A stretch of 64,000 nucleotides of DNA, from assembly GCF_921293095.1 (NCBI RefSeq), contig NC_060252.1:7316001-7380000 (forward strand), read 5' to 3'. Below are positions 6,286 through 60,058 of the stretch, in pieces (the first letter of the stretch is position 1; every line of letters begins with the position of its first letter). This DNA is from Ischnura elegans (Eukaryota; Arthropoda; Insecta; Odonata; Coenagrionidae). Under the pieces are notes generated by a model. The model ran no database searches, was not told the DNA's origin, and worked only from the letters and a program-made list of their open reading frames with translations. Both the position numbers and the translations under genes were made by a program.

Positions 6286-8445
6286 CACTTCAGCCCAAAG
6301 GTATATTTAATAACTTAAGGCTAAGTAAAAGGGATAATAAAACGAGTAATATTGTCACAATGCAACGTAACTCTACGAGGTAACGTAAACAAACAAAGGT
6401 GCTCAACCGCTGTGAAACTACGATATGTTGGCAGCGTTGTCAAGTTGGTGGTCAGCAATTATAAATAAACCATTTTTCCAAATTAGGTTGAAATTAACAG
6501 AGCAAAAGGTCTCATTAGTTAAGTTCATTTTATTCATCACAAATGATGTGGTTATAAAGCTTTACTGTATTTCCAGAGAAAGTGCTTAAATTCTTCCGAT
6601 ACCTAAGAGTCAATATAACAGCCATTCTTCATATCACTAGATTATTCCATTTTAAGTAAAATTCATGCATTGTACAGCTATTTTGATTGATTTAGCATTA
6701 CTTTTAATTTTTATGAATGACTAATTGATCAATTTTAACTCGTTGTAATCGAGTTTATCTAACTAATGAAAGCAGTATTTCGAAGCGCAGGTTCCTCCTT
6801 AACTGTGTCACGTTTTTATTAATCCTTCGCACTTAAATCTCGACGGGAGTTCTTGGATATCCAAACTTGACCTTTGCCTACGATGTAAATATTGAGAGAA
6901 ATGGACAAAGTCAAGCTGCAAGTAAAATCTGAAAACCTTGGATCAGCTATTAATAGAAACTTACAAGGAAAGCACTTGAAGTAAATGGGAATGCAGTGAC
7001 AAGGACAATGGATAACTCAAATTTTAAATTTGACTTCTTGAATTCTTTTAACTTAAAAATTTCAAATATTAGGGAGAATGCGTAACTCCATACTAGAGGT
7101 AAAGTTTTTACTCTCAATGATTTACTGCTGATGATATGCTGAACTCATTTCAAATGAGAAATGGAAAGGGGAGTGTTGAGAACACGAGCTACAAGAAATA
7201 GAAACATTAAAAGATCTTGATCATAGGGGCACATTATATAAATTCATATAACCATTCCCTTCTGCTCTATCGACAATTGTAACGTGGGCATGAATTCATT
7301 ATCAATTCATTCAGGCCACAATTAAGGCACAATGCAACATGCACAATGAATTTCATCTGACGGTGATAAACATATTTTCGTTCTAATATTCATTTCTAAG
7401 TTATGACATCATCATCATTTTTAGCATGAAATCAAATTTCACAAAGCTTAGGTATTCCCATTCATCATCGTCACTGGTCAACAATACTGGTATTCCATGC
7501 TATATAACGTGTAAACATACGTGGCTAAGACAATATTAATTCAAAATAATTTGTGAATACAGATGAATATTTTGTACCACAAGTGGAAGAGATTTGTACA
7601 CATTTCCTCCCATTGACCATTGCTGTGTATTTTTGTATGTTTGGCAACTGGGTATAGTATTTTATTAAAAATATTTTTTTTTATAAAAGCGGATGCAATA
7701 ACTAGGAAATTTGTAATAGAAAAGCATCCAGAAAAGTATCCAGTTCAAAAAATAAGTTTCCTATAATTGCATGAAATTAGTGACTGCTCTTTAAACTGTA
7801 CATCTACGCCCGGTTTTTATATTCCATTTACCACAAAGTTACCCTTACTCGCAAATTCCTCGCCTCTAAAATGTAGCTATCTGCAAAATGGATATTTCAA
7901 TTTTTTGTACTTTTTATTAAAAGAATGAACATATATATTTATGTGCATCATAATCTCTTATCTTCCCGTTAACAATATTTAACAGTCAAGTAACAAAAAA
8001 GTGACTTTTGGAACAAGTTTACAATATTTTTCCCCGGGTAACGAGGTGTCACTGTGCCAGCATAGGAATTTAAATATTTTCTTTTTGTGTAATATGAGTT
8101 ATTTTCTCCATTTATGAAGAATTTTTTGTTTCTAGTAATAAACCACTAAAGTTGGGAGGATCAGGTGAATATTTTACTGAGTTAATTGTATTTTTGTATT
8201 ATAATTAGGAATTCCTAATTCATTAGTGAATGCACCTCTGTGTTAGGAATGCTAAATACCCGAGGAACAAAATAGGATTTTTGTGGTAGGGTATAATATT
8301 ATACCCAGGTAGTGATGTTTGTTAGGCAACATTTAAACTAAAAAAATGCATTTTTTCCCTCTGAACAATGTTTTAGTATATAGGGACTCTCTAGTGGCTT
8401 AAATGAATATCTAACTCAATCCATAATTTTAGCGCTAGACAACAA
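6286..8445. other. Non-coding stretch, partly degenerate repeat
   Basis: No gene is seen. From about 8030 a loose motif (TTTCCCNNGGGTA followed by TTTTTGTG and GCATA) recurs at roughly 220-bp spacing and continues on the far side of element A (14210, 14428, 14550). Element A therefore seems to have inserted into an old degenerate tandem repeat. Confidence 0.35.
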
Positions 8446-8936
8446 CCCCAGCAGCAGAGAAGGTTGTCTCAACGTTGTAGCAACGTTACAATGAGGAAAC
8501 ATACAAGTTGTCACAACGTTTCTTAAAATTGTCACAACGTTGCACAACGTTGTTTCAACGTTGTCTCAACGTTGAAGTTCCCAGGAAACAACGTTGTGAC
8601 AACATTGTCTCAACGTTGTCACAACGTTCTGACAATATTGTCTTACCGTTGTCACAACGTTCTGACAATATTGTCTTACCGTTGTCACAACGTTCTGACA
8701 ATATTGTCTTACCGTTGTCACAACGTTCTGACAATATTGTCTTACCGTTGTCACAACGTTCTGACAATATTGTCTTACCGTTGTCACAACGTTGTTTCCT
8801 GGGAACTTCAACGTTGAGACAACGTTGAAACAATGTTGTGCAACGTTGTGACAATTTTAAGAAACGTTGTGACAACTTGTATGTTTCCTCATTGTAACGT
8901 TGCTACAACGTTGAGACAACCTTTCTGCTGCTGGGG
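8446..8936. repeat. Palindromic terminal module of element A
   Basis: The module begins CCCCAGCAGCAG and ends CTGCTGCTGGGG, with arms of about 145 bp (about 8461-8605 and 8780-8925) that are nearly perfect reverse complements around a central tandem array. It has the form of a complete MITE sitting at the left end of element A. It lacks a matching target duplication of its own (AA on the left, TA on the right). The counterpart in element B is 49649-50095. Mirror-image frames on both strands here are artefacts of the palindrome. Confidence 0.8.
8615..8779. repeat. Five tandem copies of a 33-bp unit
   Basis: Perfect or near-perfect 33-bp copies begin at 8615, 8648, 8681, 8714 and 8747, each containing GTTGTCACAACGTTCTGACA. 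In element B the same place has three copies of a related 44-bp unit (starting 49803, 49847 and 49891), so the array changes between copies. Confidence 0.9.
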
Positions 8937-10828
8937 TAGTTAATTTGTCCAACAAGTTGCTTACATGTTGAGGGCTATGGCCATGATAAAACCAATGTTT
9001 CCAATTTTGGAATGCTGAATGAGAATCGACCCAGACATGGTCCAAAATCAGCAGAAAAAACAATGGTAATATTTGGAGTAATTTCTCTAAAAATAGGTTG
9101 TATCGCATAATGGAAGAGTATAAGCAAATCATAAACATCAGTTGAATTCCTAATTCACATTCATATACTTTCCATAGAAAAGTATTACAAATGCTAAGAA
9201 ATTCATTAGTACATTCCAATATTTAAAGCAAGAAATATGACCACTTATTGTATGTACATGAAAGATGGTATAGCTAAAAATGCCCTACATTCACACCATC
9301 TTTTCTAATTCACAAAAACTTTTCAAATAGTTTCAGAGTACAGAAATGACCTTAGGCTATAAGTATTTAAAAACAAGTTTGTCATACAAATGAAAACCTG
9401 AAATAGCTTTCCTCATTAAAAATTGCTTTTGAAAGAGTCAAAATAGTGATATTAATCAGTAAAAAGTAATAGCTCAATGTGTAGGTGCATGACTTCATCA
9501 AAGTTCAAGTCAAGTTAGAATAGGAACACTACCATAAAAACAATTGCATGTGGCCATCAGCTATACAGAGATCACACTTGGACTATCCCAATTGTGTACT
9601 CGAGGAATAATGGATATTTTTATCCAATTCCAGAGGTTTACAAATGATATTTGTTTTCCCCTGTAGTAAGAAAGGACTAAACATTAATCTTGAGCGAAGT
9701 AGAATTGGAAAATGCTAGTATATGTTAAGCCAATAAATGTGAAATCATATGGCATCTACTCACATAAAAAGTGGTGCCTCTTTAACGTAGAGAGTAGGAA
9801 TGAAAAAACTTATGAGGTGAATACAAAATTTAATAACATTCTCTTGTTACAAATGAACTTGAATTACAGCAACATTACTTATCATGAGCTAGGAAACAGC
9901 TTTAATTAAAATAGGCACTTACTAGCTATTGCATGGTATAAATGAGGGAAGAAAGACTTTTCTTCCCTTCTGTTTGCCTTTTGTAGAATCCTTCCAAATC
10001 CCTCAAAAGGGTATCAACCGCTGAACCTTTTTGGTTGCTTCATCACCACCAAGATGAGTAGACTGTTAAAATTTGTATTAGCCAGATTTTAAATGCATTT
10101 TATTGTCATCCATTTTCACAAAGTGGTTTTTTTGAGTGTGTTTTCCACGCCAAACTCTTGTATAGAAACTAAATTAACTCTGTTTAATTCATTTTCACAT
10201 TATGCATATCACCATTCAGATCATTCTTTTCTATTGACCAAGTTTATAATACAATAACCAGTTTTTAGCATTAGAGTAATGTCAAAGCAAAGAGTTTGAA
10301 ACAAATGAAACTAATGCAATGTGGCCCAAAGATTTTTCTTTAGTTTTTCAAAGTTTAGGGTCATTCCATGTCAGTTCACCTAGGCCATGGCACCGACTCA
10401 GATTTTTATGAAATTTTTGTCACTAGATACTACCACCTATTTCATTACCCATGCAAAAAATATTTCCTCCCTCACTCTCATGGTTTGAAAGATATGAGGG
10501 GTCGAAGCTTGAGATGTTTGCTCAGACGTGGTGGTAGTGGGATTTAAATTCCAGTGTGCAGGGCACAAGGTAAAAATTCATAGCTCAGAAACCAAAAATA
10601 AACATTTGAATGAAATTTTGACCCATTGTGTATCCAAATACGTAGCTTCCTTAGTAATCCCTTTCATCCCCCCTGTATTGCAATGTTAGCCAAAATAATG
10701 TCCAAAATTGTTAATTAACCGATTTCTTTAGCTCAAAAACTTTTCTTCGTATTTTAAGAATAATCACGAAAAGGCAGACTAGTTAACTCATCCAATTCTT
10801 TTATGAGAGGTAAATATGCACTCCTTAA

Positions 10829-11500
10829 CACTTTGAGTGCCGGCTGCTAAATTTAAAGCCCTACTGAAAAATCCAGCCATTTTTTACTATATTCGTACAT
10901 TTTTTAAAACATTAGCATCAAAAATATATTTATATCGATGTTCATTTCAATAAAAAGGGACTTTTCTCTTCTTTATGAATGAGTTGAATAACATTTATTG
11001 CTAATTCTTAAATATATAATTTAACAATGAAACCTACTGTTTTTGAAAAATAAAAAAGTTGTAACATATGATGTACCACCATAGCATGCATAATAATTTT
11101 TTTAATACGCTCAATTTGAACTATTTAAAGCATGAAAATCATAAAAAAGCATTGTTCCAAGCAATGCATTATAAAAACCTGGATGACAAAAAGGGTCAAT
11201 GCACCCTCAACGAACGGTCCATTGGCCCAAAGAATTTTCACACTAAGGGGCCTAAGATGAGGTTGCCGGCAGCTGCAGAGGACTTTTCGTCCTCAAGACA
11301 TAAATTGAACTCTTTTTCCATTGAGCAGTTGATTTTTGAAAGACAGAACCCCTAAGCAGTAAACTGGAAAAGTACCACGGACGAAATATTACGGCTTCAC
11401 GCATACAAAGCCAATTAAATGGAAAGACGTAATATTACGTCCATGGCAATCCTCAGAAGGATTAGCAGGACGTAATATTACGTCCATGGCACGCAAAGTG
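10829..11500. mobile_element. piggyBac-like non-autonomous element nested in A
   Basis: TTAA flanks both sides (10825-10828 and 11501-11504) and the ends are CACTTTGAGTGCC and GGCACGCAAAGTG, a 13-bp inverted pair with one mismatch. TTAA targets and CNCTTTGNNTGCC-type ends are hallmarks of the piggyBac superfamily. Subterminal ACGTAATATTACGTCC copies lie near the right end. A 95-codon frame (11068-11355) has no recognisable transposase motif. The same insertion is in element B (47089-47759), so it preceded the duplication of the host element. Confidence 0.7.
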
Positions 11501-14185
11501 TTAATACTATGAAATAAAAATGGTGGTGTTTTGACTGCCACTGAGTATTTCAGGTTTTACTTTTTCTGCCTCAGTGAGGGGGATTTGGGACGTGTAATAT
11601 AAGATAATAAGTATAAGTGTATCCATAGCTTTATGATGATTCATTTGAAATAATGGTCAGTAAATCTAAGACCAAACCAGAGCCACAATAGTGAACTTGT
11701 TCATATAATTTTATAAGAACAATACTTGTCTTGTGGCAGGTGAGATGAAAAGAGCCCAAATGGCTTGGAAATGTTCTGTGAAATTATGCTCCTTTCCTGG
11801 AATTCACCTATTTTTCAAGAGTTTAGTTTATGGAAAAAATGGTATCGACTTACATTAGACTCTTACTGTGCATTATAAGAGAAATGAAAATACTAACCTA
11901 AATAAAATTATCTAAGTAATACACTTCAATCAACTACACTTGGTTTGTCATTGCTAAAACAATGTGACGCTGAAGTTTTCATCTGAACTGATCCTCTTTG
12001 CTCCTATGGGTTCTGGAAGAATGTCTCTTCGATGAAAGAAGCTGACTTTGCACAACACCAGTTCAGCCGGACTCATTTCACTTTTATGAGTGAGGTGTAT
12101 TATTTAAATAATTTTATTTAAATTAGTGTTATCATTTACCCCACAATGCACAGTAATAGTCAAATGTACTTTGATACCATTTTTTTTTCAATAAAATAAA
12201 CAAACTATAAGCAAATATCTCAAACGATGAGCCACCTCTGGGCAAACATTTCAAACTTCGAACCCTCATATCTTGCAAACTATGAGAGTGAGAAAGGAAA
12301 CATTTTACAAAGGCCATTAAATAGGTGGTAGTAGCAGGCGACAAAAATTTCGTAAAAATCCGAGTCGGTGGGTGTAATTTCGAAAATTTCCTGGGTGAAT
12401 TGACCCTTTACTAAATTCCAAAATTTTACTGTGCATTCTTATTGACATTCTTCACATTCAATGACTGCGTTGAAGTAGCGTACTGAGTTTATAAACTTAA
12501 CTATTCTCAACAATTACGATTCACGGCGCCATGAGACGAAAACTGTCCTCTGATTAAAATTTCCAGCAACTCAGATATTGTCGTTGTGCTAAAAACGATG
12601 CCTCATTGTTTCGCATTATATATTTCTGTGAAAGCGCGCAGCCTACAGCCTGAAATTTCTACAATAGGCTACAGTTTCTCCATTGTAGAGATTCCGGCCT
12701 TATAGAATCGCGATTTCACAGTAAACATTAAATTTGATAAAAAGTAAGCTTTGGATTGTAGTGTAATTATAATATCTGATTATGATAGTTATTAAAGTTT
12801 AAACCCTAGTCTACAAGATATATGCGCAGGCAACACACATTTAAAAAATCCACTTGGTAAAAATAGTTCACAAAAATATGAAAGTATAAACTCTGCCTAA
12901 TATGAATCAACACTAAAAAAAATTACAAACCCGTTCGGATGATACCCATTCGAAGGATCTGGAAGGATTCCCCAAAAGTCAAACAAAACACCACAAATTC
13001 CGATGGCCATTGATTCGCAGCTCAATGCAAATGATTGCTACTCAATTGGGTTGAGAGTAAAACCAAGAATGAAAATTGATGCACGCAAGAAAGTAAACAA
13101 AGCCAATACCGCCAATACATTATCACGCCGGCGGCCATCTTGTATCGATGGCACTTCGATAGATCGACAGTTGTAAAATATGGGCGGTAGCTTGAAAATC
13201 ATATCAGAGGATATGAAATACGTGAGAATGAAATCATAGCTATCATACCGCTTGCCACCAAAATTTACTCTCCTTGTTGAGATATTTCGCTGTGGCCATA
13301 GAAATATCTAACACCGATGAGGAGTGTTTATAATTTTCTTTGTACATCTACATCGTATTCATTGATGTGAAATCCTTTTAGTTTTTTTTAAATTTTAAAT
13401 GGGTTTATTGTTTATGAGTGTTAATTATTTTCTATTGTCTATCATCTGTGAAGTTACATGTAGGAATATGGTTAATGGGTTCTCCCGTAAATAAATTTTT
13501 GCAGCAGGTATGATATGACAAATCTGCTATTAATGCGATATAGCATGTCCTCTGCAGGTGTGATGTTTAAGTCTATGCATAGAGAAAATCATGGCTAGTA
13601 TGAGTTCACATAGCTCGTAAGTTTTATTCAAGCTTGCATATAGCATTGAAGCCAGAATTAGTTTGTCACAGCAAGTTTGCTGCAAACTTGCCGCGACAAG
13701 GTTGGTCGTCACAAGCTGATGACAACCCAAGGACAAGTACAAGCGTTTGTCGCAAGTTTGCATGCTAACTGTGTCCGCGATCGTCCTAGGGACAGGGTAG
13801 GCCCGGACCCACCCAAATTAGACAGAAACATTTAAGAATCGAAGTCCAAAGTTAAACTTCATTTGTGTTTTTTGCGTTCTTTGCCCAGATGATTTTCGGA
13901 CTTAGTTTTTTGGCACCTTCGTTGAAAATATTCTAAATGGAATTGAATGACGAAAGTCAATGCATCCCCAAAAAAGCTGTTTAAAACGCGATTCATGGAC
14001 TTAAGAAGTTATTAAACCTTAGATTATGGAATTGGAAATCTATTAGGCAAATGAAAATATTGCCCACAATGTTGCAAAGTAACGTTGCCATTAAACGTTG
14101 TCCAAACGTTGCGTCAACGTTAACATTACAGTGCAACATTTGTAACGTTGCTACAACGTTGAGACAACCTTCTCTGCTGCTGGGG

Positions 14186-23127: not shown

Positions 23128-23144
23128 CAACATGTCTTCATATA

Positions 23145-26945: not shown

Positions 26946-26949
26946 ATTC

Positions 26950-29254: not shown

Positions 29255-29476
29255 CCCCTATGAAAAAATTGTATAAAACCGTATAAAATTTCTATACAGT
29301 TTATACAGGTTGTATACAATTTGTATACATTGCATACAAATTGTATAAACTGTATTAATTCACCAGCTGTATACAGCATATACAATTTGTATACAATGTA
29401 TACAATTTGTATACAATGTATACAATTTGTACACAATGTATACAATTTGTATAACAGCAATTCAAAGTAGGCCTCA

Positions 29477-43566: not shown

Positions 43567-43575
43567 TTACACTGA

Positions 43576-43860
43576 AAGCATACCATCAATGAAAAGGCCC
43601 GGAATAACCTGCATAACTATGGCCACAGGGTAGTAAACCAAAACGAAATTACCTTGACAAGAAGTTTGGCACATAGGGTAGAATTCTATGACGGTCATAA
43701 CCTAGAAAGTAAAATTTCCATAGACTTTCACTCTAGGCTTACCATCAGTAGTTCACTCAGCCAAAACAGCACTAGTTCTCAAATCTCGAATCAAAAAAAG
43801 AATGCAAAATTAAGAACTGGTAACCACTCCATACAAAGCGTACAACAATCCTCAGAATAA
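43576..43860 (+). CDS. Unrecognised open frame in element D
   Basis: The frame is open for about 94 codons directly after the hairpin. It reads NEKARNNLHNYGHRVVNQN, then HRVEFYDGHNLESKI and a Ser/Gln/Asn-rich end (LSQNSTSSQISNQKK). The first in-frame Met is at 43654. It could be one exon of a lost transposase gene or a captured host exon. I recognise no domain and no splice sites are convincing. Confidence 0.25.
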   Translation, partial: KHTINEKARNNLHNYGHRVVNQNEITLTRSLAHRVEFYDGHNLESKISIDFHSRLTISSSLSQNSTSSQISNQKKNAKLRTGNHSIQSVQQSSE

Positions 43861-44407
43861 CTAAGCATACCTTAAACACAGATACTTACTCACCATTCGC
43901 TATACAGCATTATCCATACAGCAGAATGAGTTTATGGTAGAAGAATAAAATCGCAAAAATTCAAAATATGTTTAAAAAAATTTATTTTCAGTGCATCTTT
44001 TAATTTGCATCCCAAAAAGTTACAGAACAAAGAGACAGTATGCAAGGCCAGATTTAAATAGCAATTAATGGCAGTGGAAGTTTCTCTGCCCTCTCCTCAG
44101 AATAATAAATTTGAAAATTAGAGAATAAACTAAATTCATTTTAAGTAATTAATGCATGATATGTCAGCAGAAGCAATGCAACGAAAAATCATCAAAAGCA
44201 AAGGCAACAAACATAGTACTCAATATAGAATGAGAATGCACCATAATTCCTAGTTACAGAACAAAATGACAGTACCCAAGGGCAGAATTGCATGGCATAT
44301 AATAGCAGTGGAAGTTTTTATGCTCTTTCTTCGAAATACAAAACTGAAAATTAGGGAATAAACAGTGGTCGTTTAAAATAATTATGCTAGACACATCAGA
44401 TGAAGCA
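43861..44407. other. Element D interior, non-coding
   Basis: AT-rich interior sequence of D up to the insertion point of element B. Two diverged copies of a roughly 250-bp unit share AGTTACAGAACAAA and GCAGTGGAAGTTT (about 44018-44085 and 44254-44325). Confidence 0.4.
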
Positions 44408-47088: not shown

Positions 47089-47759
47089 CACTTTGCGTGC
47101 CATGGACGTAATATTACGTCCTGCTAATCCTTCTGAGGATTGCCATGGACGTAATATTACGTCTTTCCATTTAATTGGCTTTGTATGCGTGAAGCCGTAA
47201 TATTTCGTCCGTGGTACTTTTCCAGTTTACTGCTTAGGGGTTCTGTCTTTCAAAAATCAACTGCTCAATGGAAAAAGAGTTCAATTTATGTCTTGAGGAC
47301 GAAAAGTCCTCTGCAGCTACCGGCAACCTCATCTTAGGCCACTTAGTGTGAAAATTCTTTGGGCCAATGGACCGTTCGTTGAGGGTGCATTGACCCTTTT
47401 TGTCATCCAGGTTTTATAATGCTTTGCTTGGAACAATGCTTTTTTATGATTTCCGTGCTTTAAATAGTTCAAATTGAGCGTATTAAAAAAATTATTATGC
47501 ATGCTATGGTGGTACATCATATGTTACAACTTTTTTATTTTTCAAAAACAGTAGGTTTCATTGTTAAATTATATATTTAAGAATTAGCAATAAATGTTAT
47601 TCAACTCATTCATAAAGAAGAGAAAAGTCCCTTTTTATTGAAATGAACATCGATATAAATATATTTTTGATGCTAATGTTTTAAAAAATGTACGAATATA
47701 GTAAAAAATGGCTGGATTTTTCAGTAGGGTTTTAAATTTAGCAGCCGGCACTCAAAGTG
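47089..47759. mobile_element. piggyBac-like element nested in B
   Basis: TTAA flanks both sides (47085-47088 and 47760-47763). The ends are CACTTTGCGTGCC and GGCACTCAAAGTG. It is the same insertion as in element A, in reverse orientation. Confidence 0.7.
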
Positions 47760-49648
47760 TTAAGGAGTGCATATTTACCTCTCATAAAAGAATTGGATGA
47801 GTTAACTAGTCTGCCTTTTCGTGATTATTCTTAAAATACGAAGAAAAGTTTTTGAGCTAAAGAAATCGGTTAATTAACAATTTTGGACATTATTTTGGCT
47901 AACATTGCAATACAGGGGGGATGAAAGGGATTACTAAGGAAGCTACGTATTTGGATACACAATGGGTCAAAATTTCATTCAAATGTTTATTTTTGGTTTC
48001 TGAGCTATGAATTTTTACCTTGTGCCCTGCACACTGGAATTTAAATCCCACTACCACCACGTCTGAGCAAACATCTCAAGCTTCGACCCCTCATATCTTG
48101 CAAACCATGAGAGTGAGGGAGGAAATATTTTTTGCATGGGTAATGAAATAGGTGGTAGTATCTAGTGACAAAAATTTCATAAAAATCTGAGTCGGTGCCA
48201 TGGCCTAGGTGAACTGACATGGAATGACCCTAAACTTTGAAAAACTAAAGAAAAATCTTTGGGCCACATTGCATTAGTTTCATTTGTTTCAAACTCTTTG
48301 CTTTGACATTACTCTAATGCTAAAAACTGGTTATTGTATTATAAACTTGGTCAATAGAAAAGAATGATATGAATGGTGATATGCATAATGTGAAAATGAA
48401 ATAAACAGAGTTAATTTAGTTTCTATACAAGAGTTGGGCGTGGAAAACACACTCAAAAAAACCACTTTGTGAAAATGGATGACAATAAAATGCATTTAAA
48501 ATCTGGCTAATACAAATTTTAACAGTCTACTCATCTTGGTGGTGATGAAGCAACCAAAAAGGTTCAGCGGTTGATACCCTTTTGAGGGATTTGGAAGGAT
48601 TCTACAAAAGGCAAACAGAAGGGAAGAAAAGTCTTTCTTCCCTCATTTATACCATGCAATAGCTAGTAAGTGCCTATTTTAATTAAAGCTGTTTCCTAGC
48701 TCATGATAAGTAATGTTACTGTAATTCAAGTTCATTTGTAGCAAGAGAATGTTATTAAATTTTGTATTCACCTCATAAGTTATTTCATTCCTACTCTCTA
48801 CGTTAAAGACGCACCACTTTTTATGTGAGTAGATGCCATATGATTTCACATTTATAGGCTTTACATATACTAGCATTTTCCAATTCTACTTCGCTCAAGA
48901 TTAATGTTTAGTCCTTTCTTACTACAGGGGAAAACAAATATCATTTGTAAACCTCTGGAATTGGATAAAAATATCCATTATTCCTCGAGTACACAATTGG
49001 GATAGTCCAAGTGTGATCTCTGTATAGCTGATGGCCACATGCAATTGTTTTTATGGTAGTGTTCCTATTCCAACTTGACTTGAACTTTGATGAAGTCATA
49101 CACCTACACATTGAGCTATTACTTTTTACTGATTAATATCACTATTTTGACTCTTTCAAAAGCAATTTTTAATGAGGAAAGCTATTTCAGGTTTTCATTT
49201 GCATGACAAACTTGTTTTTAAATACTTATAGCCTAAGGTCATTTCTGTACTCTGAAACTATTTGAAAAGTTTTTGTGAATTAGAAAAGATGGTGTGAATG
49301 TAGGGCGTTTTTAGCTATACCATCTTTCATGTACAATAAGTGGTCACCATTTCTTGCTTTAAATATTGGAATGTACTAATGAATTTCTTAGCATTTGTAA
49401 TACTTTTCTATGTAAAGTATATGAATGTGAATTAGGAATTCAACTGATGTTTATGATTTGCTTATACTCTTCCATTATGCGATACAACCTATTTTTAGAG
49501 AAATTACTCCAAATATTACCATTGTTTTTTCTGCTGATTTTGGACCATGTCTGGGTCAATTCTCATTCAGCATTCCAAAATTGGAAACATTGGTTTTATC
49601 GTGGCCATAGCCCTCAACATGTAAGCAATTTGTATGACAAATTAACTA

Positions 49649-50095
49649 CCCCAGCAGCAGAAAGGTTGTCTCAACATTGTAGCAACGTTAGAATGAGGAA
49701 ACATACAAGTTGTCACAACGTTTCTTAAAATTGTCACAACGTTGCACAACGTTGTTTCAACGTTGTCTCAACGTTGAAGTTCCCAGGAAACAACGTTGTG
49801 ACAACGGTAAGACAATATTGTCAGAACGTTGTGACAACGTTGTGACAACGATAAGACAATATTGTCAGAACGTTGTGACAACGTTGTGACAACGGTAAGA
49901 CAATATTGTCAGAACGTTGTGACAACGTTGAGACAATGTTGTCACAACGTTGTTTCCTGGGAACTTCAACGTTGAGACAACGTTGAAACAACGTTGTGCA
50001 ACGTTGTGACAATTTTAAGAAACGTTGTGACAACTTGTATGTTTCCTCATTGTAACGTTGCTACAACGTTGAGACAACCTTCTCTGCTGCTGGGG
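49649..50095. repeat. Palindromic terminal module of element B
   Basis: Counterpart of 8446-8936: arms with CAACGTTG motifs around three copies of a 44-bp unit (starts 49803, 49847 and 49891). It is 44 bp shorter than the module in A. Confidence 0.8.
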
Positions 50096-50418
50096 CAAGA
50101 GCAATTCAATGAAAAATAAAAGCATATATTCATAATAATGCAACAGTATACACAATCGCTGTCAAAAACAGATCTCCTTATCCTGGTGCAATTGCTGGTA
50201 CCACTCTCCTATCTTTTTATTTATTTTACCAAAACCAACATGAACCAGCGTAGGCTTCTTATCAGCATCTGAGGAAATACCAAAGAACACACATAAAGCA
50301 TCTACTGATACAAAAGACGCAATCAATGGGAGATCAATTGTAAAAGGAGGGAAGGAATAACTGACAAGAGTAAAAACTATACCAAGAATAGCTTTGTAAT
50401 AATTATAATATTTATCAT

Positions 50419-51027
50419 TGTGGTAATCGGAAGATACTCTGCGTGGCGGGAAAGGAGGCGGGACGCTACTTTTCCCGCCCTAGGGTGCGTGGGTCCAAGT
50501 AGCATTTCTTAGAATTCGAACCACGCCCGAGGGTACTCTACCCTTTCCCGCTGCGACCCCTTTCCCTCCACCCGCACCCCAAGAAAATAGCTATATAGGG
50601 CAGAAATTGTGGCCCGCGGGTGACAGTTTTTCGTGGGAGTACAGCAAGTGCGGAGTGCTTGGGCAGAGCGAGTTCGTCGTTCGGGGACTGCTACGACTCT
50701 CCTCGGGGGACTCTTCGGGACCTAGACGCGGGAGCTGCGGTAGATCTCGAACGACGACTCGAGTGGGAATCGAGCCGGGTACAACAAGATCCACGTACAT
50801 CGGCACCGCCTCTCCCTACTCGCCGCCACGTAAGTTCTCTGCCCAAGCATTCCACCTCCGTGCGCGCCAGCCTCAAATCCCCCCCGGTGCAAGTGCAAGA
50901 ACTGAATAAGAACGAACAATAAAAGCTGTGTTAATTACTCCCAATGAGCATTTGATTCGCTCTCCCTTCGGGACCTTATCCAGGCAGAAGACCTACCTGT
51001 AGGTAGCAGTGTCGTCCCGTCGCGACA
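50419..51027 (+). repeat. Gypsy 5' LTR
   Basis: It begins TGTGGTAATCGG and ends CGTCGCGACA. A TATA-like CTATATAGG lies at 50591-50599 and AATAAA at 50918-50923, giving a plausible U3-R-U5 layout. The LTR has high G+C compared with its surroundings. Confidence 0.93.
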
Positions 51028-51030
51028 TTT

Positions 51031-51048
51031 TGGTGTCAGGTGGAAAAT
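51031..51048 (+). promoter_or_regulatory. Candidate primer binding site
   Basis: TGGTGTCAGGTGGAAAAT begins three bases after the 5' LTR, the usual place for a tRNA-primed start, and starts with TGG as expected for a CCA end. The tRNA is not identified. Confidence 0.5.
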
Positions 51049-51170
51049 TAATTGTAATTTTCGGGAGCTAGTTTTACAGTGAATAATCTAAAGGACATTT
51101 ATTCCGATTTTTTGTTATTTTCGTGCTTTATTTTATTTTTGTTTGTGTTGAATTTTGGTATTACTTCACT

Positions 51171-52340
51171 ATGGCCTGGCCGCAGGAAAATTTTATTTTC
51201 AAACAAAACACGAATCCATTATTTCGGCACGAGCATAGCGCGGATTTAATTGATTTTCGTCCATCAGTTAATACTATAACCCCAAATCATTCTGAGAATT
51301 TACCTAATCCGCCATCCACTTCACCTAACTCCGCCATCCCTCACACTCTTGGGGGACAAGTATATTTTATTCCGCTATTCAGTGGGGATGATGACGTATC
51401 GGTAGAAACTTTTTTAGAAAAATTAGATTTAATTCGCAATTTAAGCGCTTGGACCGAACCTCAAACGTTATGTGTCGCGCGCTTACGCTTGGCAGGTTCC
51501 GCTGCTGAATATGTGTCGGCTAATCCACACGTAGTCAAAAGCTTCAGTGATTTCCTTAGGTATTTAAAACAGAGATTTTCTGCCCGCATTTCACCTCTGT
51601 CTCTCGAGCGCTTATTTTCCAGCTGCACTCAGCAGCCTTTGGAAACAGTAGCAGGCTACGCAACAAGGCTTCGGAAAATTGCAAGGCAATTGCTGGAAAC
51701 GCTCGCGGATCCCTCCTCGGAAGTGGCCACGGCGATGATAGGAAACAGGCTTCTTTTGCAATTTTTGTCGGGATTAAGAGAAGAAATAGGTCGCTTTGTG
51801 CAAGTCAGACACCCAAAGAGTATGTTAGAGGCCGAAGAGTATGCTCTGCAGGAGGAAGCGACTGTGAAGAGTTACGCCGCCAAAAAAATAGACGCGCAGT
51901 ATGTGCATATGTTGGATAGCTTTCCCTATGACCCTGCCTTCCACATCCCTTCACCCCAAGCCGGGAGAATACCCTCACTCTCCCTTTCTTCGTCCAGCTT
52001 TCCTCAAGTGAACCACATCCCTGACAGACAAGGCCTTCGCCCACACCCTTCTCCTAGACCCTCTCCTGCCCATAAACCTGTCGTTCAAGATCGCCCAACA
52101 AATGACAACCGAAGCTGCTATTCTTGCGGAAAGACAGGTCATATTTCTAAGTACTGTCGCTCGCAAGCCCAGCGCTGCTATAATTGTGGGGAAAATTCAC
52201 ACTTCTCCAAGGAATGTCCACTTCAGTGTTGTGGAATTTGTAAAGAAATCGGCCATCGCCCGCTCCATTGCCCCATCAAGAAGACCTCCGAGAAACCGGG
52301 AAATGGGATAACCCCGGCCGCGAGGTCGGGGACGAAGTAA
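51171..52340 (+). CDS. gag: Gypsy Gag polyprotein
   Basis: The frame is open from 51123, but the Met at 51171 (MAWPQENFIF) is the more likely start because the 16 codons before it are hydrophobic and lie close to the LTR. From there it is 389 residues. The central part (about residues 85-220) has the shape of a retrotransposon capsid domain (ETFLEKLDLIRNLSAW, LKQRFSARISPLS). A basic, Pro-rich linker follows. At the end are three CCHC zinc knuckles: CYSCGKTGHISKYC, CYNCGENSHFSKEC and CGICKEIGHRPLHC. It should form the particle and bind RNA. It overlaps pol by 73 bp, with pol in the -1 frame. Confidence 0.92.
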   Translation: MAWPQENFIFKQNTNPLFRHEHSADLIDFRPSVNTITPNHSENLPNPPSTSPNSAIPHTLGGQVYFIPLFSGDDDVSVETFLEKLDLIRNLSAWTEPQTLCVARLRLAGSAAEYVSANPHVVKSFSDFLRYLKQRFSARISPLSLERLFSSCTQQPLETVAGYATRLRKIARQLLETLADPSSEVATAMIGNRLLLQFLSGLREEIGRFVQVRHPKSMLEAEEYALQEEATVKSYAAKKIDAQYVHMLDSFPYDPAFHIPSPQAGRIPSLSLSSSSFPQVNHIPDRQGLRPHPSPRPSPAHKPVVQDRPTNDNRSCYSCGKTGHISKYCRSQAQRCYNCGENSHFSKECPLQCCGICKEIGHRPLHCPIKKTSEKPGNGITPAARSGTK

Positions 52341-55300
52341 TTTTGGCAGTATCACCAGTATCGGGTATGGCAGTAAGAGTTCAAATATTGGGAAAGCCTT
52401 ACCGTTTTTTAGTGGACACCGGAGCAGCAGTTACCATTATAAATGAGAAAAAATTTCCATTTCATACTCTCCAGGTTTTGCCCTACAATCGACCAATTAA
52501 GAGCGCCTCGGGTCATTGTTTAAAAACTTCTGGCCAAAGCTACCTTCCATGCTTAATAGGTGGAATACCATACCCCCATGATGCTCTTATTGTTGACTTG
52601 GGAGAGACGGAGTATGATGGTATACTAGGATTAGATTTTATGACGCAGTATGGAAGTCAAATATGCCTCGCTAGCGGCACCTTCAAAATTACACCGGATC
52701 ACACCGTGGAGTTGCTCTCGAGAGATGCCCCTTTGGAAGAGATAAAATTAATTTCTTTCGAAGAGACTAGTGGTAGCAAGGAAAATAAATCAAACTATAT
52801 TCCAATTAACGATACGGATTTGCTTTTCTTTATGGAAGAAGAAAAACTTAAGGACTTACCGGAACCGATATTACCCCAACAGGCCTCCATCGCAGTAGGA
52901 AATTTGATCGACATTGACACATCCTGGTCGGTTGAAACAGAAACGCAAAATAGATTGAGTAATTTTCGGGAGACAAATGATATAATGCTTGAGGAATTTT
53001 CAGGACCTTTAAGGAGAATTAGTGAAAGTGGAGAGGAATACGAGAGAACGCCAGTGGACGAGTCAAATGGAGAGGATGAATGTGAGGTTATCGAAATCAT
53101 CCCGGCCGAAAGGCAAGAACAGGATCATCTTGGAGAAATGGGAGAGATTGAAGAGTATTATGGGCCGTCAGGGACTCTACCAGGGAAATTTTGGAGTACT
53201 GACGATGAAAGGGTATGTACCGCAGTCTCTTCCGCCGAGAGGCAATCGCGAGATGACCTTGTGACCAAGGGAGAGATATGCGATGGGTATGAGCAAAGCA
53301 TCACTGATCCTCTAAAGAATTATTTTGGGCCGTCAGGGACTCTACCAGGAAAATTTTGGAGTACTGACGATGAAATGGCGTGCACCGCAATCTTTCCCGC
53401 CGAGAGGCAATTACAAGATGACCTTGTGACCAAGGGAGAGATATGCGACATGTATGATAAAAACGCTGATCTCCGACAAGAAAAGTTTCGAACGTATGCA
53501 TATTTAAAGAAACGAGAAAAAATTCCCCCCTATTCTGCAGTATTAATCGCCGCCTGGAATGAAGAATTAGCTGGAAAAGTCGTGTCAGTGGAGGCAGCGG
53601 ACAATGAGACACTTGTAATCCCCTCTGTCTCTAAAGTTTCCGACGCTGGAGCCGTGAATGTTCTTCTAGGAAATCTTACTAGTTCCGAACAAGTCCTGAA
53701 AGCTGGAACAGGGATTTGTGTGGAAGAAGAAAATGAGGAAATTGTGTTCTTATCCATTCAGGAGGGAAAGGAAGAACCACCAATTTGGCCAGAAGAGGCG
53801 AAAGATGGTGATTTATTATCACTATTTAAATTCGATAGCGTACCAGAAGGCGCGAGAGACTCCCTGAAAATTTTAATCAGCGAATATTCCGATATATTCA
53901 CCCACGGATCCATTCCTCTCGGATGTACAAATCAAGTGAAGCACGTTATTAACGTTGGTGACGCCCGACCGATTAAAAAACAACCTTATCGCGTCCCCCA
54001 TGGCCTTCGACCTATTCTAGAGAAAGAAATTAATGAGATGCTCGCTCAAGGTGTCATATCACCTTCTACGAGTCCTTGGGCTGCGCCTCTCATTCTGGTG
54101 AAAAAGAAGTCATCATCAAATAATGGTATCCGGCAGTACCGTCCTTGCGTAGACTACCGGGCGCTTAACAATGTCACCGTTAAGGAAGTTTTCCCTCTGC
54201 CAAATATCGAGGAGACGTTTGATCAATTAGGAGGGGCAAAATATTTTTCTACGATGGACCTCTGCAGTGGGTATTGGCAGGTGGAGATGGATGAAGCAAG
54301 TAAACAATACACGGCCTTCAGTACACCAGACGGGCATTACGAGTGCAACCGCATGAGCTTCGGACTCGCGAATGCACCCTCTACGTTCATGCGCTTAATG
54401 ATGAAGGTACTTCGTGGGATGATCAACCATGGATGCGCCTGCTACCTGGACGACATAATACGCTATGATTCTACCCCCGAAGACCACATCAATGGGCTCC
54501 GAGAAGTTTTTAGCCGATTGCGTAGTGCAAACCTACGACTTAAGCCGCAAAAATGTAACTTCTTCAAGGAGCGAGTAGGATTTTTGGGCCATGTGGTGTC
54601 GGTCGATGGAATACGGCCGGACAAAGAGAAAGTTGAGGCCATAAAAAACTTCCCTATACCTAAGAATGTTCAGGCAATACAATCCTTCCTCGGTCTCGTC
54701 GGATATTATAGACGTTTTATACCGGATTTCGCGGACGTTTCTTGCCATCTCACACGGCTGATTAAAAAAGGCAACGAATTTGTTTGGGAAGAGGAACAGC
54801 AACAGGCGTTCGAGAAATTAAGATTGGCTCTCTGCACTCAACCCGTTCTAAAATTTCCTGATTTTTCGAAACCATTTCTTCTTTACACTGACGCCTCTAC
54901 TCAAGCGTTGGGAGGAATATTGGCGCAAAATTTTGAAGATGGTGAGCACCCTGTGGCCTGTGCCAGCCGGCAGTTGCGTAAAGCTGAGAAGTCATATTCC
55001 GCAACAGAACTAGAGTGCTTAGCAGTGGTGGAAATGATTAAAAAATTTCGCGTATACTTGCTCGGAAGAACCTTCACCCTCTATACAGATCATAAGCCGC
55101 TAAAATGGCTGCTAACGCAGAAAGAGCCGAAGCCGCGATTGGCGCGCTGGATCATGGAGATCACTGAATTTACGTTCGACATCCAACACCGACCTGTCAA
55201 ACAACTGCCCCACGTAGATGCGCTATCCAGAATAATTCCCGGGATTAACGCCCTCGAGGTGGAGATGGTCACTCACGAGCCAACGTGGGATAAGGAGAAA

Positions 55301-56701
55301 ATACTGCATGAGCAACAAAACTGTCCCCATTTAAAATCCCTCCATGACTTGGCCCGAATTCATGACCCATCCTTTTTCTACGATGAAGATGGACTCCTTT
55401 ATAAAGTTATCCCCGGCACACCCGATCCTAAATTTTCCCTATGTGCACCAAAAGCTATGCGTCGATACATCATGGAGCGATGTCATGACAATCCATTAGC
55501 TGGACACTTGGGCGTGACCAAGACTTTGGAACTTGTTCGCAGGCACTTCTTTTGGGATGGATCCTCGGTCGATACGACTAACTATGTTAACGGCTGTCTA
55601 ATGTGCAAGAAGAGAAAGGCAAGAACCCAAAGGATACCGACTCAGCCCACAGAAGAAACCTCCTACCCCCTCGAAAAATTAGCATTGGATATCGTGGGGC
55701 CTCTTCCGAAATCTTCCCGCGGAAATCAGTACATCTTAACCTGCCAGGACCACTTCACCCGGTATCCCGAGGCCGTGGCCATTCCCAACCAATCCGCGGA
55801 AACAATCGCGCGAGCTTTTGTGGAAAATGTTATCTGTCGTCACGGAGTACCGAAATACCTTTTGACAGACCGTGGTGCGAATTTCACCTCCAACCTAATG
55901 AAAAATGTCTGTAAACTTTTGCAAATTAAGTCGATATTTACCTCCCCTTACAACCCCGCCGCCAACGGTCGCCTAGAACGAGCGCATCAATCGTTCGCGA
56001 ATGTAATTTCCCACTATGTCTCGCAGGACCACACAGACTGGGATGACCATTTAAATTTTGCTCTTTTTGTATACCGGAATAGCAAAAATAGGATCACCGG
56101 GTATTCCCCTGCCTATTTAATGTACGGAAGAGAACTTAAAATGCCGTGGGATGCCGTATTAGAACCCTCAAGCGTTTCTTACGCCGAGGAACCCCCCTAC
56201 GAATTGGTAATAAAAAGAAGGTTGCAAATAGCGCATTCGCAAGCCGCAGAATTCAGTAAAGAGAACTTAGAGAGCGACAGGGAGAGGAATAATCAAGGGA
56301 TATCTCTTCCCCCGCTGATGGTCGGACAAATGGTCCTACTGAGAAATATGAAGCTTCCAGGTGGCGCGAGTAAAAAGCTCGCCTCTCGGTGGATTGGGCC
56401 ATATGAAGTAATTAAGGTGAGAAGTCCAGTCACCTATGATATTCAAAGCACTCAGCACGGTAGAACCCTGATTGCCCACCGCCGTAACCTTTTACCCCTA
56501 CCACCTGATCCTGTGCCAACGCAACCCACTTTCCGTGCCGACTGCAGTGATCTCTCATCCCCCTCCCCCCCTTGTGAGCCTCGCCGGACGCCCTCTCCGA
56601 GACCTCTCGAAGAAGAAAGTGCGTCGCTGCCCACTCCCCCGACCCCCCGAAGTCATCCTTATAATCTTCGACCCTTACCAGGTCGTGGAATCCACCCTTA
56701 G
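52268..56701 (+). CDS. pol: Gypsy Pol polyprotein (protease, RT, RNase H, integrase)
   Basis: The open frame contains 1477 codons; the true product is probably made by frameshifting from gag, not from the Met at 52268. Protease: VDTGAAVTII with DTG at about residues 50-52. A spacer follows with two tandem copies of a 55-codon unit (GPSGTLPGKFWSTDDE). RT: VISPSTSPWAAPLILVKKK and YLDDI at about 726-730. RNase H: LYTDAS with Asp about 878, and TDHKPLKWLL. Integrase: an HHCC finger (GHLG, CLMCKK), catalytic Asp about 1141 (LDIVGP), Asp about 1201 (LLTDRGANF) and Glu about 1237 (NGRLERAHQ), a correct DD35E spacing. WIGPYEVI fits the GPY/F module. All catalytic residues are present. There is no chromodomain; the tail is Pro/Ser-rich. 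Confidence 0.94.
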   Translation: MPHQEDLRETGKWDNPGREVGDEVILAVSPVSGMAVRVQILGKPYRFLVDTGAAVTIINEKKFPFHTLQVLPYNRPIKSASGHCLKTSGQSYLPCLIGGIPYPHDALIVDLGETEYDGILGLDFMTQYGSQICLASGTFKITPDHTVELLSRDAPLEEIKLISFEETSGSKENKSNYIPINDTDLLFFMEEEKLKDLPEPILPQQASIAVGNLIDIDTSWSVETETQNRLSNFRETNDIMLEEFSGPLRRISESGEEYERTPVDESNGEDECEVIEIIPAERQEQDHLGEMGEIEEYYGPSGTLPGKFWSTDDERVCTAVSSAERQSRDDLVTKGEICDGYEQSITDPLKNYFGPSGTLPGKFWSTDDEMACTAIFPAERQLQDDLVTKGEICDMYDKNADLRQEKFRTYAYLKKREKIPPYSAVLIAAWNEELAGKVVSVEAADNETLVIPSVSKVSDAGAVNVLLGNLTSSEQVLKAGTGICVEEENEEIVFLSIQEGKEEPPIWPEEAKDGDLLSLFKFDSVPEGARDSLKILISEYSDIFTHGSIPLGCTNQVKHVINVGDARPIKKQPYRVPHGLRPILEKEINEMLAQGVISPSTSPWAAPLILVKKKSSSNNGIRQYRPCVDYRALNNVTVKEVFPLPNIEETFDQLGGAKYFSTMDLCSGYWQVEMDEASKQYTAFSTPDGHYECNRMSFGLANAPSTFMRLMMKVLRGMINHGCACYLDDIIRYDSTPEDHINGLREVFSRLRSANLRLKPQKCNFFKERVGFLGHVVSVDGIRPDKEKVEAIKNFPIPKNVQAIQSFLGLVGYYRRFIPDFADVSCHLTRLIKKGNEFVWEEEQQQAFEKLRLALCTQPVLKFPDFSKPFLLYTDASTQALGGILAQNFEDGEHPVACASRQLRKAEKSYSATELECLAVVEMIKKFRVYLLGRTFTLYTDHKPLKWLLTQKEPKPRLARWIMEITEFTFDIQHRPVKQLPHVDALSRIIPGINALEVEMVTHEPTWDKEKILHEQQNCPHLKSLHDLARIHDPSFFYDEDGLLYKVIPGTPDPKFSLCAPKAMRRYIMERCHDNPLAGHLGVTKTLELVRRHFFWDGSSVDTTNYVNGCLMCKKRKARTQRIPTQPTEETSYPLEKLALDIVGPLPKSSRGNQYILTCQDHFTRYPEAVAIPNQSAETIARAFVENVICRHGVPKYLLTDRGANFTSNLMKNVCKLLQIKSIFTSPYNPAANGRLERAHQSFANVISHYVSQDHTDWDDHLNFALFVYRNSKNRITGYSPAYLMYGRELKMPWDAVLEPSSVSYAEEPPYELVIKRRLQIAHSQAAEFSKENLESDRERNNQGISLPPLMVGQMVLLRNMKLPGGASKKLASRWIGPYEVIKVRSPVTYDIQSTQHGRTLIAHRRNLLPLPPDPVPTQPTFRADCSDLSSPSPPCEPRRTPSPRPLEEESASLPTPPTPRSHPYNLRPLPGRGIHP
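52298..52331 (+). promoter_or_regulatory. Programmed -1 frameshift signal between gag and pol
   Basis: The heptamer GGGAAAT (52298-52304) is in the correct phase of gag (codons GGA at 52299 and AAT at 52302). After a 7-nt spacer comes an 8-bp stem, 52312-52319 with 52324-52331, closed by the GNRA tetraloop GCGA. A -1 slip at 52304 enters the pol frame exactly. Heptamer, spacer and stem fit the standard pattern. Confidence 0.75.
53155..53450 (+). repeat. Tandem 165-bp repeat inside pol
   Basis: Two copies with a period of about 165 nt (GGGCCGTCAGGGACTCTACC at about 53162 and 53327) encode GPSGTLPGKFWSTDDE, AERQ and DDLVTKGEIC in frame. They lie between protease and RT, so the unit is a linker duplication that keeps the frame. 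Confidence 0.85.
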
Positions 56702-57486
56702 AAATTACTCCCTTCACCATGCCGCACCCTCGGAGACGCCCTGCACTCCGACTCACCACACTTTTGGTGGGAACGTTCGGAGGTACGCGTTGGAGGAGAA
56801 GGATCCACCGATTTGACACGTCGGACGCCCGAGGACACCCGGAAAATTTCCCCCCCCCCCCCCAGTGCTCCGAGCCGTCAATTCTTTTTGTGTGTGAAAG
56901 GACAGGAGACTCGGTTTTATGCTCTATATGTTATGCTTATTTGTTTTTTCCTCAGTGTGACTTTGGACACACAAGTGTTATATTTTGGTGCAGTGATTTT
57001 AGAGATTCTTTTTATTAAATGCAGTGCAGTGTTTTCTTTAAATATTTTATTCTATGAGTTTATAGTGACGATGGACACAGTTATCCTTTGGTAGCGTAAG
57101 TTGTAGAGCTTTTTATATTTTATTTTAGGACTAAACAGTTATTTTGGACACATTAAGTGCAACATTCAGTGATTTTTTAAAATATGTTCGTGTTTTTTTT
57201 TCAAGTTATTTTTTATGTTTAAGTGTCTATTCTTGATATTTGCATTGTTAAATTGTTTTTTCCCCTCGATGAAAATTTTGTGAATTTTTTCATGTGGTTT
57301 CTTTCAATGTTTTTTGTATGTTGTAATTGTCTATTTTTGTCAATTGTGTTGCGAATTGTTTTTTTTTTTTTTTTCGTATGAGTTCTTATATGAAATATTT
57401 ATGTTGACTTGAGGCTGGAGCGCAATGAAACCTACCCCTCTCCTTTTCAAATCACCCCCCCGTAGATTTATTTGCCAAGGAGGTGA
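56702..57486 (+). other. Gypsy 3' non-coding region with polypurine tract
   Basis: No envelope frame is seen. The region is rich in T runs. It ends in AAGGAGGTGA at 57477-57486, directly before the 3' LTR, a suitable polypurine tract for plus-strand priming. Confidence 0.7.
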
Positions 57487-58095
57487 TGTGGTAATCGGAA
57501 GATACTCTGCGTGGCGGGAAAGGAGGCGGGACGCTACTTTTCCCGCCCTAGGGTGCGTGGGTCCAAGTAGCATTTCTTAGAATTCGGACCACGCCCGAGG
57601 GTACTCTACCCTTTCCCGCTGCGACCCCTTTCCCTCCACCCGCACCCCAAGAAAATAGCTATATAGGGCAGAAATTGTGGCCCGCGGGTGACAGTTTTTC
57701 GTGGGAGTACAGCAAGTGCGGAGTGCTTGGGCAGAGCGAGTTCGTCGTTCGGGGACTGCTACGACTCTCCTCGGGGGACTCTTCGGGACCTAGACGCGGG
57801 AGCTGCGGTAGATCTCGAACGACGACTCGAGTGGGAATCGAGCCGGGTACAACAAGATCCACGTACATCGGCACCGCCTCTCCCTACTCGCCGCCACGTA
57901 AGTTCTCTGCCCAAGCATTCCACCTCCGTGCGCGCCAGCCTCAAATCCCCCCCGGTGCAAGTGCAAGAACTGAATAAGAACGAACAATAAAAGCTGTGTT
58001 AATTACTCCCAATGAGCATTTGATTCGCTCTCCCTTCGGGACCTTATCCAGGCAGAAGACCTACCTGTAGGTAGCAGTGTCGTCCCGTCGCGACA
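57487..58095 (+). repeat. Gypsy 3' LTR
   Basis: 609 bp, the same length as the 5' LTR. The only difference I found is G against A at the position matching 50519. AATAAA is at 57986-57991. Followed by the target duplication TCAT. Confidence 0.93.
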
Positions 58096-58099
58096 TCAT

Positions 58100-59060
58100 G
58101 ATGAATCATAAGCACGCAAGAGGATTCCCACATGCACACCACACGGTCACAACAATGTTACATACGCCAGAAAATTACTCTCTCTCATTTATATAAAGGC
58201 TAAACTTGCCAAACACTCATGAAGGCAATCTACCCTGAAGCTAGAACTTGCAAAAACATTGTCAATATTTTCTAATTTATTCTCAGAGGGTTCAGTGAAC
58301 ACACTCTTGAAGTAGGAATTCAATAAATTGACTTTCACGAAACTGTTTGCTAATACTTATCCATCATCGTATTTTAGCGATCAAACGGAAGATATTTTAC
58401 ATTGCTCGTAATTCCCTAACACCAGACCAAAATGCTGTTGAGTTATCCCGTTACTCCTCTACCAGCATTTTCATTTTAAAATTCGTCAATGCATTCTTGA
58501 AGGCTTACTTAAGCTTTAAACAACTTATATTTTTTAATTTGTAAACACGAGATAATTACTGGATAAATCAGTATTGACATCTTCCATTTTAGCAGGGCAT
58601 TCTCTCTGTCGCTTTAATGATTTTTTCACTCCCGCGTCAGCCCATCTCGTTAGACAATCTTTTTAGTATTTTACTAAAAAGGTTGGCTAACTAAAAACTT
58701 TTCAGCTGTGAACTTTTCCTGAGATATGCGTTACAAATTTCCTATTTCACTATTAATGGAAACCTATATGATTATTATTTTAAAGCTTATTTCCAATGGT
58801 TCCAAACATAACTACGACCACGTATGTAAACAAAAACACTCACTCTTAAAATGTGTTTATATTCACCATGAAAGAATGCCAATTCTACCTAATTTCAAGG
58901 AGCATTGAATTTAAAGTAACTAAAATTATACATTTTAAAAGAAGATGTTAAATTCTTACCTAATTAGAATCCCCAAGGACGATCAACAGTTTCACAAAGT
59001 TGGCCGCCATAGCCTCAGCAAACTTCCCAAGCACCCTGGTAAACAATCGCGTATCGCGTA
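58100..59060. other. Right interior of element D
   Basis: AT-rich, with short frames (65 and 60 codons) that are not recognised. On the minus strand an AATTAG/GTAAGA donor-like site at about 58968 ends a short frame MAANFVKLLIVLGDSN, but an in-frame TAG precedes the donor, so no exon is called. Confidence 0.35.
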
Positions 59061-59280
59061 GCGGAGGATTGTTGCACAAACTCGCATTTGCAGCGTTCCA
59101 GCAGCGTGCTGCAGGCATGCTTTGGGCATGCGCTGTTGATGCGCTGCAATTGCGTGTTTCGCCAGCGTGCTGCGAAAGAGCGCTGCACAAGCGCTGTTAC
59201 CGCGCTTCATTGAAACGGAAACGAACTTGCAGCTGTGAAACCCATGTGCAGCGCTGCTGCAGCTATTTGTGTTTACAGGG

Positions 59281-60058
59281 ATCTAGGGGTTAGAATCAAT
59301 AATGATCTATCGTGGAATAAACAAATTCGAGAAATAACCGGTCAAGCTAATCGTAAAATGGGTTTTGTTAAAAGAATATTAGGAAAGTGCGACGACAAAG
59401 TGAGAGAAATTAGCTACTTTTCCCTCGTTAGACCACATTTGGAATACGCTGCCAGTGTTTGGGACCCTCATGAAAAAGGCTTAATAACAGAGTTAGAACG
59501 CGTGCAAAGAAGAGCTGCCAGGTATGTGAAAGGTCGTTACGATAGTCTTGTTAGTGTAACTGACCTCTTAGATAAACTCGGATGGGAATCTCTGTCTGAC
59601 CGTAGATTGAAAAATAGACTAAACCTTTTAGATAAATTCAAGAGCAGTGTCTTTTCTGACGAAGTTAACCATATCTTGCGGAGGCCAACGTACTACGGAA
59701 GATCAGATCATATAAATAAAATAAGAGAGATAGATTGCTGAACAGACAGATTCCGAATGTCATTTTTTCCTCGATCAATAAGAGATTATAACGGCAGAAA
59801 TAGACCTCGTAAATAGATTGCATGACTTGTAGTGTAGCCTACTAACCTATGTAAAACTTAAAGCATGTTTCTGAATTTCTATTCTATATTCTATTTCTAA
59901 CAGCATATAGTAGTATAGTTTTTTATTATACGGGACGTTTTTTGGACGGTGTGGTGTGCATGTGGGAGTCCAAATGCATGCTGCATGCTGGTGATTGATC
60001 ACCCCCTGCCAAACACCCTAGAGGTGGCTCGCAGGGTATTATGTAGATGTAGATGTAG
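59281..60058 (+). pseudogene. CR1/Jockey-group LINE, right part (RT thumb and 3' end)
   Basis: This is the continuation of 41816-42844. The frame reads LGVRINNDLSWNKQI, MGFVKRILGKC, LVRPHLEYAASVWDP and QRRAARYVKGRY, and stays open to a TGA at 59739-59741. The 3' UTR carries CACCCCCTGCCAAACACC, GGTGGCTCGCAGGGTATT and a TGTAGATG tail, the same signature as the LINE at 33208. A longer apparent frame from 59235 has its first part in the end of element D. Confidence 0.8.

Follow-up and report, generated by a model that had tools for sequence, protein, structure and literature searches.

Five insertions, elements A, B, C, D and E, lie in 64,000 nt of Ischnura elegans DNA (contig NC_060252.1; host assembly of 1.72 Gb in 110 contigs), and they raise the question of whether insertions carrying four different kinds of end can belong to one superfamily of transposable elements and, if so, to which. 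We refer to the whole stretch that was analyzed as the window. Our conclusion is that families A/B, C, D and E are very probably non-autonomous families of TRC (animal CACTA/EnSpm), mobilized in trans by Transposase_21 from elsewhere in the genome; the four families are new, and the superfamily is already known. The five elements are as follows.

8446..14185, minus strand: element A, 5740 bp, non-autonomous, flanked by AA (8444-8445) and AA (14186-14187)
44408..50095, plus strand: element B, a copy of family A in the orientation opposite to A, inside D, flanks CA/CA
23145..25245: element C, 2101 bp, tips CCCAGSAARGAAAAACTGATTTCC, flanks TA/TA
42845..59280: element D, flanks AT/AT
29255..38837, plus strand: element E, flanked by TT on each side; its length is about 2.9 kb once a tandem insert, presumably Helitron-like, is discounted

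A first-pass annotation made from the letters of the window had quoted a tip for each family, reported a 2-bp direct duplication around each element and described dense short repeats inside the ends, and all three descriptions held when checked. The quoted tips of A/B (CCCCAGCAGCAGARAAGGTTGTC), C, D and E are exact and stand at the positions claimed, and all five elements begin with CCC. The flanks listed above were read directly; given the base composition of the window, a 2-bp match is expected by chance with a probability of 0.071 per element, or 1.8e-6 for five out of five. Arrays of short repeats lie within the ends of all five elements, with characteristic motifs enriched 38- to 906-fold over the remaining window: GCAGCGC in the ends of D (906-fold), TATACAA in those of E (231-fold; the array motif is TATACAATTTGTATA), AACGTTG in those of A (62-fold) and GATTTCC in those of C (38-fold, with 6 copies), the weakest of the four. 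A and B are 97.8% identical and therefore count as copies of one family, which leaves four terminal families, as had been proposed, and not five. No open reading frame (ORF) of at least 150 aa was found in A, whose right end is presumed to be the gene side.

The ends can also be found without using the flanks. A scan of the window for inverted 16-mers starting with CCC, tolerating a single mismatch, returned A, B, D and E; C, whose tips differ at two bases, was not picked up. The remaining pairs fell in a palindrome inside D (43215-43564), array stretches of A/B, the inner right end of E, a hairpin element that we take to be Harbinger-like, and the interval 58127-59966. The first of these, which has AT/AT flanks, was considered as a sixth insertion and rejected as an internal palindrome of D: its arms are exact in 19 of 20 D copies, and all six seemingly solo copies lie within D-like sequence. 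Duplicated ends occur in three forms, namely a fold-back pair at the left of A, a tandem pair at the right of E and a doubled left tip in one D copy from elsewhere in the genome (L043).

43213..43566: internal palindrome of D, arms CCCCAAAAGCAATTCC
8446..8936: left end of A, made up of CAACGTTG-type repeats in a fold-back array of 491 bp; the inner edge of the array (8925-8936) repeats the tip in inverted form
38544..38837, minus strand: tandem duplicate of the right terminal array of E, inner end at 38543

D landed in the coding sequence of a long interspersed nuclear element (LINE), and its duplication can be judged there against a reading frame.

41799..42844, plus strand: LINE reverse-transcriptase fragment hit by D, resuming at 59281-59741

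With D and one AT removed, the LINE flanks join into one open frame, NNSLQRNYIIRGTQLKAVESVKYLGVRINN..., which runs through VKYLGV; with both AT copies kept, the frame is broken. A second LINE frame in the window (33319-34395) holds a matching VKYLGV stretch. Because the joint with a single AT restores the frame and VKYLGV is matched in the other LINE, the AT at D is best interpreted as a duplication produced upon insertion.

We extended the flank analysis to copies elsewhere in the genome. Exact tips gave 134 matches for D, 1321 for E and 187 for C in the host assembly, and the control, each pattern reversed and not complemented, gave 0 for each. Paired copies were defined by exact tips at both ends among the first 100 places listed per family, a selection that favors young copies. 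A 2-bp duplication flanked 28 of the 31 fetched D copies (29 of 32 rows in the table, where one copy was entered twice), all 20 E copies fetched from 31 pairs among the matches listed, and 9 of 10 fetched C copies, two of the nine having identical flanks. For family A/B the evidence is the two copies in the window. When genome and window copies of the A, C, D and E families were pooled, 61 of 65 distinct sites carried a 2-bp duplication. In two D copies the match extends to 4 bp (ATAT), and a 3-bp match was seen in 0 of 66 rows (genome and window copies). The duplicated pair is not TA only: ten dinucleotides occur, mostly A/T (TA 15, AT 15, TT 9, AA 5, AC 4, GA 3, CT 3, AG 3, CA 2, GT 2). Around it, D and E prefer a pyrimidine before and a purine after (Y-WW-R; 44 of 58 flank bases in D, 31 of 42 in E), and control positions show no such preference (58/122). 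Elements of the P superfamily duplicate 7-8 bp at their targets; no copy row of A, C, D or E had a flank match of 7 or 8 bp.

Copies differ widely in what lies between the tips. Most other fetched D copies measure 2.9-3.1 kb, and D itself spans 16,436 bp in the window because B and a long terminal repeat (LTR) retrotransposon sit inside it. Among the fetched E copies, 16 are miniature (102-167 bp) and four measure 2.8-5.4 kb; three miniature copies that were inspected consist of scarcely more than two joined arrays. One E-tipped copy (L066, G000:C1:12372632-12375592) spans 2761 bp between exact E tips with an AT duplication, and its interior shows no match of at least 150 nt to that of E, so that here E tips surround other contents. 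The tip of A, the one tip compared with viral and prokaryote contigs, had 0 matches in either set.

Two groupings of copies stand out. D tips at G000:C2:137667738-138015506 number eleven forward and one reverse, most of them 26-37 kb apart, in what looks like a large tandem duplication carrying a D copy. Eleven C pairs among the matches listed have a tip spacing of exactly 2029 bases, and none of them lies farther than about 4.1 Mb from the end of a contig (for example G000 C6:124514, C8:110880, C4:536631, C7:824747 and C3:998269). Two of these pairs, L104 and L120, sit on separate contigs and are identical in their flanks. It may be that C travels as part of a subtelomeric repeat.

These features point to TRC. 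TRC elements of Schistosoma, Tribolium and Aedes have a CCC core and 2-bp duplications (PMC1636069), and SmTRC1 contains the Transposase_21 domain. Here we find the CCC core in five window elements and three genome-wide families, a variable 2-bp target-site duplication (TSD), and repeats in the ends; we find neither the 3-bp TWA duplication of PIF/Harbinger, 3-bp matches being absent, nor the tip and 3-bp TSD of plant-type CACTA. The host genome also holds Transposase_21 genes. PF02992 gave 26 matches (best 48.8 bits against a cut-off of 28.6), and none of 14 control genomes was positive. Open frames at these loci reach 882 aa, and the 20 loci extracted, out of the 26, group into nine clusters at a 70% identity threshold.

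Of these genes, L096 (contig C6) comes closest to being an autonomous copy. About 350 bases 3' of its 844-aa frame the short repeats CCAGTCA and AGTACAG form a dense array, scoring 16 where the highest of 40 shuffles reached 9, and the array terminates in ...TTTTTGTATGGG (GGG), that is, in a CCC tip reading CCCATACAAAAATATCTGTG (16-base form CCCATACAAAAATATC); as a 23-mer this tip has seven matches in the genome. Element A has a 37-nt stretch, located 691-728 from its right tip, that matches the L096 frame at the 5' edge with 86% identity (E 2.4e-6). The score of 49, the best of 320 comparisons between elements and transposases, compares with a highest null score of 32 over 400 shuffles. As a separate observation, the 3' flank of a second Transposase_21 gene, L100, holds a tandem array (L127) with ATACATATGTAT motifs whose composition resembles the TATACAA arrays of E.

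Homology between families was sought in the sequence just inside the arrays. A and E have 140 nt in common at 75% identity, oriented alike with respect to the tip, 154 nt from the right tip of A and 267 nt from the left tip of E, and this segment scores 144 against a null maximum of 38 in 60 shuffles.

13892..14031, minus strand: segment common to A and E, in A, inside the right array
29522..29661, plus strand: segment common to A and E, in E, inside the left array; second copy at 29688-29792

The first-pass annotation had inferred one superfamily with fast-changing terminal arrays. The shared design, the variable 2-bp TSD and the A-E homology bear out the single superfamily for A and E, and C and D join them by signature only. 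The idea of fast-changing arrays is borne out in part: between A and B there are 44 gap columns in 491 in the array against 22 in 5106 in the interior, but base substitution is no faster (0.9% in the array, 1.1% in the interior). Family A/B also holds a nested element: 10358-12406 in A and its counterpart in B form an inverted-repeat element that starts with GGGTCA and has TTTA on both sides, and its insertion into A predates the divergence of A and B.

Several results weigh against the assignment to TRC. No transposase was found between the tips of A, C, D or E, most copies being unexamined, and membership of these families in TRC rests for that reason on the signature. A tblastn search with 20 Transposase_21 frames gave nothing in the window at E 0.01, the best value for the elements being 0.32, and among the matches listed the Transposase_21 gene nearest a D tip stood 21 kb away and that nearest a C tip 24 kb, judged by eye. 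For L096, neither a left end, sought in 4.7 kb upstream, nor a TSD was found. Two further element-transposase scores, D-L098 (38) and E-L090 (33), likewise lie above 32, the highest null score, and have no straightforward interpretation, and 3' flank arrays above all 40 shuffles, within about 1.2 kb, were present at two of five genes (L096 and L100). Four of the 65 sites lack a duplication (three D, one C), and the Y-WW-R preference is absent in C (10/18) and at the two A sites (2/4). Only one of 28 comparisons between interior ends was significant, that of A with E, and C and D are tied to A and E by the signature alone. Finally, E contains half of a THAP-like exon, a feature that goes without mention in the TRC literature as far as its available text extends.

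30243..30401, plus strand: THAP-like exon in E, ATG-led, reading MPFSCVVPVCEGN...FTFPIDLHGLKKKCILAIRRDNFTPTENIK and followed by GTATGT, a GT resembling a splice donor

With moderate confidence we take this exon to encode the N-terminal half of a THAP zinc finger, and we presume that it was the first coding exon of the lost autonomous parent of E. THAP was the only Pfam family named for it, at 13.9 bits, below the cut-off of 23.9. Against PDB, the THAP1 domain aligned from residue 4 in both sequences (E 0.077), and an unrelated chain scored slightly above THAP1 over the whole exon sequence. A search with the exon gave no homologue. The exon is retained in two other E copies (L065, L067) and frameshifted in a third (L064). 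Within the elements, Pfam searches covered the listed ORFs and single short ORFs, A, C and D being left out; a candidate last coding exon at 30826-30969 matched no family and is unsupported. No paper linking THAP with CACTA was found in the literature as partly available.

This exon bears on three other explanations. The elements could be a mixed set, in which A/B and E belong to a THAP-encoding superfamily, C and D to TRC, and the 2-bp TSD arose by convergence. We consider this improbable. The subterminal segment is indeed common to A and E and occurs in neither C nor D, and a pattern scan of the window found a THAP-like start in E alone; however, the CCC tip and the 2-bp TSD are alike in all families, the Y-WW-R preference is common to D and E, and A also has a short match to a Transposase_21 gene. 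The first-pass annotation had instead named ISL2EU, of the PHIS superfamily, as a candidate, and this did not survive. ISL2EU duplicates AT within A-AT-T, has ends that usually start with GG and encodes THAP domains in its transposases (PMC4482050); a YqaJ nuclease gene beside the transposase is a further mark of it. Derivatives of ISL2EU would account for a 2-bp TSD, for the half THAP exon of E and for AT being one of the two commonest duplications (15/61). The elements studied here use ten dinucleotides, show A-AT-T at 0 of 61 sites and begin with CCC, not GG, and we regard an ISL2EU origin as very unlikely. Least credible of all is descent from Galileo-like fold-back elements of the P superfamily with THAP sites in long repetitive ends, which could draw on the long fold-back end of A, the half THAP exon of E and the multiple THAP sites in the long terminal inverted repeats (TIRs) of Galileo (PMC3688188), and against which stands the lack of 7- or 8-bp flank matches noted above.

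Returning to TRC as the preferred assignment, we propose that a Transposase_21 enzyme would synapse the two ends of an element through proteins bound to the arrays, cut at the CCC tip and join the target with a 2-base stagger, leaving the 2-bp duplication. Insertion would favor A/T at the duplicated pair, with a pyrimidine before and a purine after in D and E. The short-repeat arrays would serve as putative binding sites that mark the element ends and would diverge through gain and loss of repeats, and non-autonomous forms would retain tips and arrays while losing or replacing the interior. Transposase_21 enzymes are thus presumed to move these families, and a pairing of enzyme with family is likewise conjectured. 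The proposal of array binding is modeled on the binding of THAP domains to sites repeated within the long TIRs of Galileo (PMC3688188). More tentatively, and we hold this to be doubtful, recognition might have two parts: a cutting step common to the families, at CCC with a 2-bp stagger, and arrays that act as a family-specific address for a rapidly changing DNA-binding domain, which for E might be a THAP finger encoded in the first exon. If so, new families would arise by swapping the array and its reader with the interior kept, as A and E suggest. Elements with unrelated-looking ends can be grouped by their manner of insertion, here tested on 65 sites, and a family with 1321 tips, miniatures of about 100 bp and many Transposase_21 genes make a tractable set for asking how a transposase recognizes its own ends. 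The surprise is limited, since the superfamily is known.

Other features of the window were recorded alongside these elements. The hairpin element at 4301-4496, presumably Harbinger-like, has GGGCCCCCGCGC ends and TAA/TAA flanks, in contrast to the CCC elements. A 99% hairpin of about 220 bp at 2236-2456 is probably another miniature element. The insert at 31740-38462, inside the right array of E, consists of two near-identical head-to-tail copies, of which the first is interrupted by a LINE fragment, and we assume the insert to be Helitron-like; E copy L065 has an insert at the same place. The LTR retrotransposon within D (50419-57786) has identical 300-nt stretches in both LTRs and long gag- and pol-like frames. 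A 19-bp exact inverted repeat at 58126-59967 spans the right boundary of D without a flanking duplication and is unexplained.

Among known systems, the elements most resemble TRC, in the CCC tip, the 2-bp duplication, the end repeats, the kilobase size, the truncated non-autonomous copies and the presence of Transposase_21 in the genome. They differ from it in that the present arrays are family-specific and dense and the E miniatures measure 102-167 bp; moreover, a 2-bp repeat was reported for 7 of 14 SmTRC1 copies (PMC1636069), against 61 of 65 sites here, where copies were chosen by exact tips. A close parallel is Spongebob (EnSpm-4N1_HM) of Hydra, with tip CCCAGCCAACATTGAC and a 2-bp TSD, which was assigned to TRC on those grounds and in which its authors found no exact transposase (PMC4298943). 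It shares the CCCAG tip, the 2-bp TSD and, with a consensus of 5,836 bp, nearly the size of A (5,740 bp), and it differs in the tip beyond CCCAG, the comparison being by description and not by alignment. Plant CACTA elements (En/Spm) likewise have TIRs and an enzyme of the Transposase_21 family, but they carry a CACTA tip (PMC1636069) and make a 3-bp TSD (PMC4158355), in contrast to the CCC tip and 2-bp duplication of the Ischnura elements.

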